This document shows, piece after piece, positions 58,871 through 59,244 of a stretch of 64,000 nucleotides of DNA; within the stretch, counting starts at the first letter, position 1; the number at the start of each line of letters is the position of its first letter. A model generated the notes under the pieces. The model did not search any database and had not been told where the DNA came from. It worked only from the letters and a program-made list of their open reading frames with translations. Both the position numbers and the translations under genes were made by a program. The DNA comes from Halobacteriales archaeon YIM A00010. Its GTDB lineage: Archaea > Halobacteriota > Halobacteria > Halobacteriales > Haloarculaceae. The stretch is from assembly GCA_025041175.1 (NCBI GenBank), contig JAKCFJ010000002.1, forward strand, positions 1-64,000, read 5' to 3'.

Positions 58871-59244
58871 CTTCCTTGCCACTTCAACCGGCCTGTTTTG
58901 CGACCGTTCTCCCGATGGGTTTGGAGGGTATCTAGATCTGAGTGGATCTGTTTGACCGTCTGTTGAGCGGCGTGGGCCAATACCTCCTTGAAGATCGGCC
59001 ACTGTCGCTTCCACCCTGGGAGTTTGTTGATTTGCTCGAACTCGCTCGGACGGTCGTCTCTGTCCAAGCGGTAATAATCGCGGACAGCGTGGTTGCGGAT
59101 CTGCCGGTGAATCTCGATGTGTCGCCACGTGGTCCGAAAGACGCTTCGCGTCTTTCGTCATCACGAAACGGCTTCGCCGTTTCGAACGACTTCGCTCGCG
59201 GTTTCTGTGTCAGGAAACGCACGAAAGCGAAGCGTGTAGTCCAT
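58866..59244 (-). pseudogene. Truncated IS200/IS605-type TnpB, interrupted by hairpin repeats
   Basis: Read from the ATG complement 59242-59244, the N-terminus is MDYTLRFRAFPDTETASEV, as in haloarchaeal IS1341-type TnpB. A hairpin array with in-frame stops (59135-59184) then interrupts it. After the array the frame continues WRHIEIHRQIRNHAVRDYYR…, then FEQINKLPGWKRQWPIFKEVLAHAAQQTVKQIHSDLDTLQ… and GRLKWQGSGEYRS, where it ends at the MFS fragment. The catalytic RuvC part is missing. It is a decayed element whose insertion or deletion removed most of both genes. Confidence 0.8.
59135..59184. repeat. Hairpin-repeat array D, inside the tnpB fragment
   Basis: Two perfect 3-nt-loop hairpins, 59135-59157 (10-bp stem) and 59164-59184 (9-bp stem), both with loop TTC and a C-G closing pair. 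The second has the same stem as hairpin 14374-14394 of array B, with the loop as its reverse complement (GAA there), so one is the inverse orientation of the other. They split the TnpB reading frame. Confidence 0.88.

Follow-up and report, generated by a model that had tools for sequence, protein, structure and literature searches.

A double-hairpin element in a haloarchaeal tnpB remnant and its dispersed family of probably mobile small DNA elements

The stretch of DNA analysed (the window) comprises 64,000 nucleotides of Halobacteriales archaeon YIM A00010 (assembly GCA_025041175.1, contig JAKCFJ010000002.1, positions 1 to 64,000). On its minus strand lies a tnpB coding sequence split by two adjacent perfect hairpins, as had been noted in the original prediction from the letters alone, and the stop codons ascribed there to the hairpin array were found as a TGA TGA in the tnpB frame. 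The gene (58856-59244) is a remnant regardless of the insert, with ~110 of roughly 440 codons and no tnpA left. The earlier range for the array, 59127-59200, was not retained, although insertion itself was confirmed. An intact TnpB copy had been proposed as the key to the borders, and three copies without the insert were located: L029 and L031 in the same genome, and L058 in the relative G028, whose tnpB is 83% identical to the window remnant. L029 is a complete IS605 insertion sequence (IS), with its tnpA and tnpB confirmed by Pfam. Its tnpB is 83% identical to the remnant on both sides and gapless across the junction, reading ...GCGAGCGAAG|CGTGGCG... on the tnpB strand, with 60 nt absent at the bar. 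Because this homologue is uninterrupted at the junction, the insert is exactly 59130-59189 (60 nt), with 0 bases duplicated and 0 missing; the array edges were checked for target-site duplication and for replaced bases, and neither was present. No intact TnpB protein carrying the same intervening sequence was found. When folded as single-stranded DNA, the insert formed only the two hairpins (-22.1 kcal/mol, z = -5.5; none of 200 shuffles did equally well).

A BLASTN search of the array against its own genome returned ~20 related places in which the short joints were alike and the stems different. The recurring unit, here termed the double-hairpin element (DHE), has the form TCGTY-[hairpin]-TGATGA-[hairpin]-RACCA and is mostly 54-66 nt long. 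Its stems start with CG, most loops are of 3 nt, and the two hairpins stand in tandem as one unit. The pattern used for further searches specified the joints and, in each hairpin, the outermost CG pairs, leaving all inner pairing free. As an exact match to the joints was required, the copy numbers are lower bounds, and some of the surveyed genomes were incomplete. The pattern found 10 copies in the source genome and was present in 51 of 97 relatives and 31 of 47 genera, while the reversed-pattern control gave 0 matches in every genome. Altogether, 227 genuine copies were collected, representing 208 different sequences. All genuine matches listed from a collection of named genomes were from haloarchaea (Halorubrum, Natrinema, Haloarcula, Haladaptatus, Haloquadratum and others). 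In 393 genomes drawn evenly across the phylum, matches were confined to the order (59 genomes); ~310 other genomes of the phylum lacked DHEs, and the viral contigs scanned with the pattern yielded none. Two bacterial matches, in an Opitutaceae metagenome-assembled genome and in Jiangella, were without hairpins and were set aside as chance.

DHEs are dispersed at unrelated sites across the order and are inserted exactly, preferentially at CGNNG|C, without duplication or deletion. Among 229 records, which include the two bacterial chance matches, G was found at -1 in 221, C at +1 in 205, C at -5 in 184 and G at -4 in 198. Empty sites were sought with the joined flanks of 13 copies against the 97 genomes, and with those of all copies against all collected loci; a counterpart was accepted at >=85% identity over >=85 nt if gapless around the junction. 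Such counterparts were obtained for 21 copies at 85-100% identity (L154, 100%; L079 and L102, 98%; L057, 97%; L115, 95%; the window copy, 87.5%), with no target-site duplication and no deletion. The L203 copy lies inside a Y1 tnpA gene, with empty counterparts in G066, G030 and G041 that overlap Y1_Tnp matches. Pre-existing hairpins of >=7 bp were found at 13.6% of the sites compared to 3.9% of CGNNGC control sites, and one IS605 end palindrome, CCTCGGGG|CTTGACCCCGAGG (CCTCGGGG|CTTGA), alone holds 13 copies. TnpB was the only gene family enriched near DHEs (19 of 116 loci), most copies lying elsewhere, and is read as a target rather than an agent. With IS605 palindromes and genes as frequent landing sites, DHEs break those transposons, the window case included. 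A second tnpB remnant (L046, G000 C1:2671321-2671374) carries a DHE at the homologous codon; this is most likely an independent hit, since the stems are unrelated and the TnpB sequences only ~38% identical.

The stems change by paired changes. Pairs 3-6 were Watson-Crick in 1792 of 1826 cells of the 229 records, and whole-stem pairing reached 97%, compared to a shuffled mean of 76% (individual hairpins, 74-76%; highest value in 500 shuffles, 79%) when the 3' arms were redistributed among elements of the same length. Stem types number in the dozens and both hairpins of an element draw on one common stock, yet the two stems within an element are kept unlike: an identical 8-nt arm in both hairpins was seen in 0 of 208 sequences against 21.7 expected, with 0 of 5000 shuffles as low. 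Unlike arms are expected if the hairpins must fold independently, or if a repeated arm leads to rapid loss of the element. Selection, replication template switching or both may maintain the pairing. In a single step, template switching produces perfect stems along with compensatory changes (PMC8794818), and it could account for rapid stem turnover and loop inversion. That DHEs are for this reason not mobile at all, their hairpins arising in place, is nevertheless highly improbable and already contradicted by the recurring joints: such a process cannot explain why identical joints and borders recur at unrelated places across many genera, or why the empty sites are exact. It could contribute to the perfection of the stems, but not to the placement of the joints.

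Strong compensatory changes with fixed joints are also the usual mark of a functional RNA, and GTGATGA is similar to the archaeal box C. A rival explanation is a structured RNA (a regulator, terminator or processing signal) conserved through selection on transcripts. In a heuristic codon-usage gene call, about 95% of copies were intergenic, and neighbouring genes showed near-balanced orientations (36 convergent, 27 divergent, 31 + 23 tandem); DHEs have no strand relation to genes. Loops were about equally frequent as both complements (GAA/TTC, GGA/TCC), which together with the balanced orientation points to DNA rather than RNA. In addition, no box D was present, no Rfam family scored at or above the gathering score, and copies lie inside tnpB, tnpA and protein genes that have empty homologues. 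The RNA explanation is thus quite improbable; like a terminator, it was rejected with the orientation bias absent. Three DHEs of 66 nt lie in frame in proteins (L151, L165 and L178, around position 1500), adding 22 residues each (RSRDGDAVSRDDE...) and reading the joint as ..GAT GAC... Those of L151 and L165 are in the ATPase part of histidine-kinase-like proteins (L151 by an HATPase_c match, L165 by likeness), and that of L178 is in another protein.

With respect to the agent of movement, a REP- or REPIN-type element moved in trans by a dedicated TnpA-REP (RAYT) or an IS200/IS605 TnpA would share hairpins with short unpaired tags, the lack of duplication and insertion into palindromes (PMC3733652). 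The DHE tail resembles CCA and its head CGTY is like that of CGTC-tagged repetitive extragenic palindromic (REP) elements (PMC3733652), and Y1 genes were present in 31 of the 51 carriers. This explanation is unlikely, however, as the other 20 carriers, with 50 copies, had no Y1_Tnp match, and tnpA was not enriched at <=1.5 kb of copies. The stems are not a fixed recognised sequence either, and the 3-nt loops, CG stem starts and absence of head-to-head pairs are unlike CGTC REPs. A Y1 transposase as obligatory partner was rejected on account of the carriers without Y1_Tnp, in which either another enzyme acts or the copies outlive their enzyme.

Taken together, DHEs are probably (at about 0.68) a family of very small, usually non-coding, non-autonomous mobile DNA elements of haloarchaea, recognised as a folded single strand. 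From analogy, we infer that recognition would act on folded single-stranded DNA, in which two independently folding hairpins would expose short unpaired joints to the enzyme as its specific contacts. The enzyme, which need not be an IS200-type TnpA, might then cut and rejoin at the outer borders G|T...A|C, akin to the handling of IS200/IS605 and REP elements, and the stem letters would matter only for pairing and for avoiding cross-pairing. Several points weigh against this proposal. Single-strand recognition is argued by analogy only, and no mobilising enzyme was found: for an IS200-type TnpA, the obvious candidate, the 20 carriers above gave no Y1_Tnp match. Movement itself was not observed, and no recent burst was seen, since nearly all copies are distinct (208 different sequences among 227). 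Some of the empty sites may be related sequences rather than the same locus, several flanks being repetitive, and the preference for hairpins is partly owed to the one IS palindrome with 13 copies.

Double-hairpin elements with other joints were also found (Table 1). In the window, a second-family element interrupts the same IS remnant as the TGATGA-family DHE, splitting its near-terminal palindrome. Its flanks map to adjacent bases of L029, and this was therefore an exact insertion too. Two more copies of the second family were present, in L005 and L033, and the outer rule G|T...A|C is common to the first two families. The third family, with joints ATC/TRGCA/GA, was found in 10 of 97 genomes, mostly of this genus; its same-arm count was 0 with only ~1.5 expected, too few to inform. 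It is tentatively suggested that an order-wide class of mobile DNA may exist, of at least three families with differing joints on one plan (joint-hairpin-joint-hairpin-joint); its stem sequence would be free, recognition would rely solely on the fold and the unpaired joints, and insertion would be the work of a novel enzyme distinct from Y1 transposases. A composite was also seen at window 14282-14396, where a double hairpin with joints TGCTG/GCATCTT/GGACC adjoins the 3' half of a TGATGA-type element (TGA-hairpin-AACCA), as if one element had gone into another's joint. Comparable composites were present in L009, L014, L016, L026 and L027.

Table 1. Double-hairpin elements and interrupted IS sequences in the window
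Feature	Position	Strand	Sequence or description	Basis
DHE, TGATGA family, 60 nt	59130..59189	-	TCGTT-(CGAAACGGC GAA GCCGTTTCG)-TGATGA-(CGAAAGACGC GAA GCGTCTTTCG)-GACCA	L029 empty site, pattern match, fold
DHE hairpin 1	59164..59184	-	9-bp stem, 3-nt loop	hairpin search, fold
DHE fixed joint between hairpins	59158..59163	-	TGATGA, 2 in-frame tnpB stops	
DHE hairpin 2	59135..59157	-	10-bp stem, 3-nt loop	hairpin search, fold
Interrupted tnpB, 5' part	59190..59244	-	MDYTLRFRAFPDTETASE...	84% identical to L029
tnpB remnant, remainder	58856..59129	-	WRHIEIHRQIRN..., C-terminal two thirds missing	83% identical to L029
Second-family double-hairpin element, 55 nt	59354..59408	+	TCAA-[hairpin]-GTATCCA-[hairpin]-GCGA, in IS end palindrome	flanks map to L029 2446|2447; fold z -4.9
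IS near-terminal palindrome, left part	59341..59353	+	CCTCGGGGTCAAG, split by second element	
IS near-terminal palindrome, right part	59409..59416	+	CCCCGAGG	
Third double-hairpin family	14502..14554	-	TRGCA joint	one of 17 copies in source genome

Other features were noted near the remnant. A gene for a major facilitator superfamily (MFS) transporter (58652-58966) is truncated at the tnpB remnant, its MFS_1 match covering the first 61 profile positions only. As the truncation falls where the gene meets the tnpB remnant, a deletion or rearrangement joint is marked by what is left of the IS. The palindrome AGACTGAATATTCAGTC occurs three times (60085-60101, 60212-60228 and 60336-60352; spacing 127 and 124 nt) in the interval that separates a TetR-like regulator from an ABC transporter operon, and these copies are probably operators.

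With DHEs, the 'enigmatic' small mobile repeats of haloarchaea gain a compact, testable form: the borders are exact, the target has a motif, and the joints are fixed while the stems are free. DHEs represent a natural experiment on the recognition of DNA by shape rather than sequence. They also supply proteins with in-frame peptide insertions and repeatedly break IS605 transposons.

No description of the DHE family was found among the open-access papers searched. The nearest description is that of the SMR-A small mobile repeats of Haloquadratum walsbyi (HqIRS42, HqIRS43 and HqIRS55), which are ~110 bp long, with prominent terminal inverted repeats and copies >95% identical in one species, and whose mobilisation was called enigmatic (PMC3119063). 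Both are haloarchaeal, lack a transposase and produce no target duplication, as seen for DHEs at the 21 gapless empty sites. SMR-A prefers the near-terminal palindromes of IS605-type elements or palindrome-associated transposable elements (PATEs); 13 DHEs occupy such a palindrome and 19 of 116 loci are near tnpB, with most copies elsewhere. DHEs are, however, mostly 54-66 nt, their ends, TCGTY and RACCA, do not form inverted repeats, and instead of near-identical copies there are 208 different sequences among 227, with hypervariable stems, joints fixed order-wide and hairpins in tandem. In 400 kb of Haloquadratum no 110-bp SMR-A-like family was recognised, and the comparison with HqIRS42/43/55 was by description only.

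The GTAG/CGTC-tagged REP elements and REPINs are bacterial and often prefer heterodimers (PMC3733652, PMC3116915). They share with DHEs short palindromes, unpaired tags, variable stems and an intergenic location, sometimes inside genes or palindromes. CGTC REPs have stems starting with AT pairs, loops of 4-5 nt and head-to-head dimers, whereas DHEs have CG starts, mostly 3-nt loops, a tandem unit and the fixed TGATGA joint; for the CGTC head and CCA tail of these REPs, DHEs have TCGTT, rarely TCGTC, and RACCA. REPINs with a RAYT/TnpA-REP have a cognate Y1 transposase flanked by repeats, whereas Y1_Tnp is missing from 20 of 51 DHE carriers and not enriched near copies. PATEs and IS200/IS605 ends also have near-terminal hairpins and no target duplication (PMC3119063, PMC6006769), and for IS605 the single-strand mechanism is known (PMC3119063, PMC6006769). 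DHEs differ in that they apparently lack an IS605 end sequence (no systematic end comparison was made), have the target CGNNG|C, which is not of the known IS605 type, and also occur where the genome has no Y1 transposase. Mitochondrial double-hairpin elements, repetitive hairpin-forming elements and yeast GC clusters are likewise tiny double hairpins, dispersed, mobile by presence/absence and with no enzyme known (PMC2800124, PMC4478555). Those of Allomyces insert without target duplication, as DHEs do, whereas yeast GC42 changes mostly in its loops and has a putative AG duplication (PMC2800124, PMC4478555). These belong to organelle genomes, and the likeness is one of architecture only, with no homology claimed. 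In summary, DHEs work like SMR-A but do not share its size, inverted repeats or copy identity, and the REP and mitochondrial elements are similar in kind.
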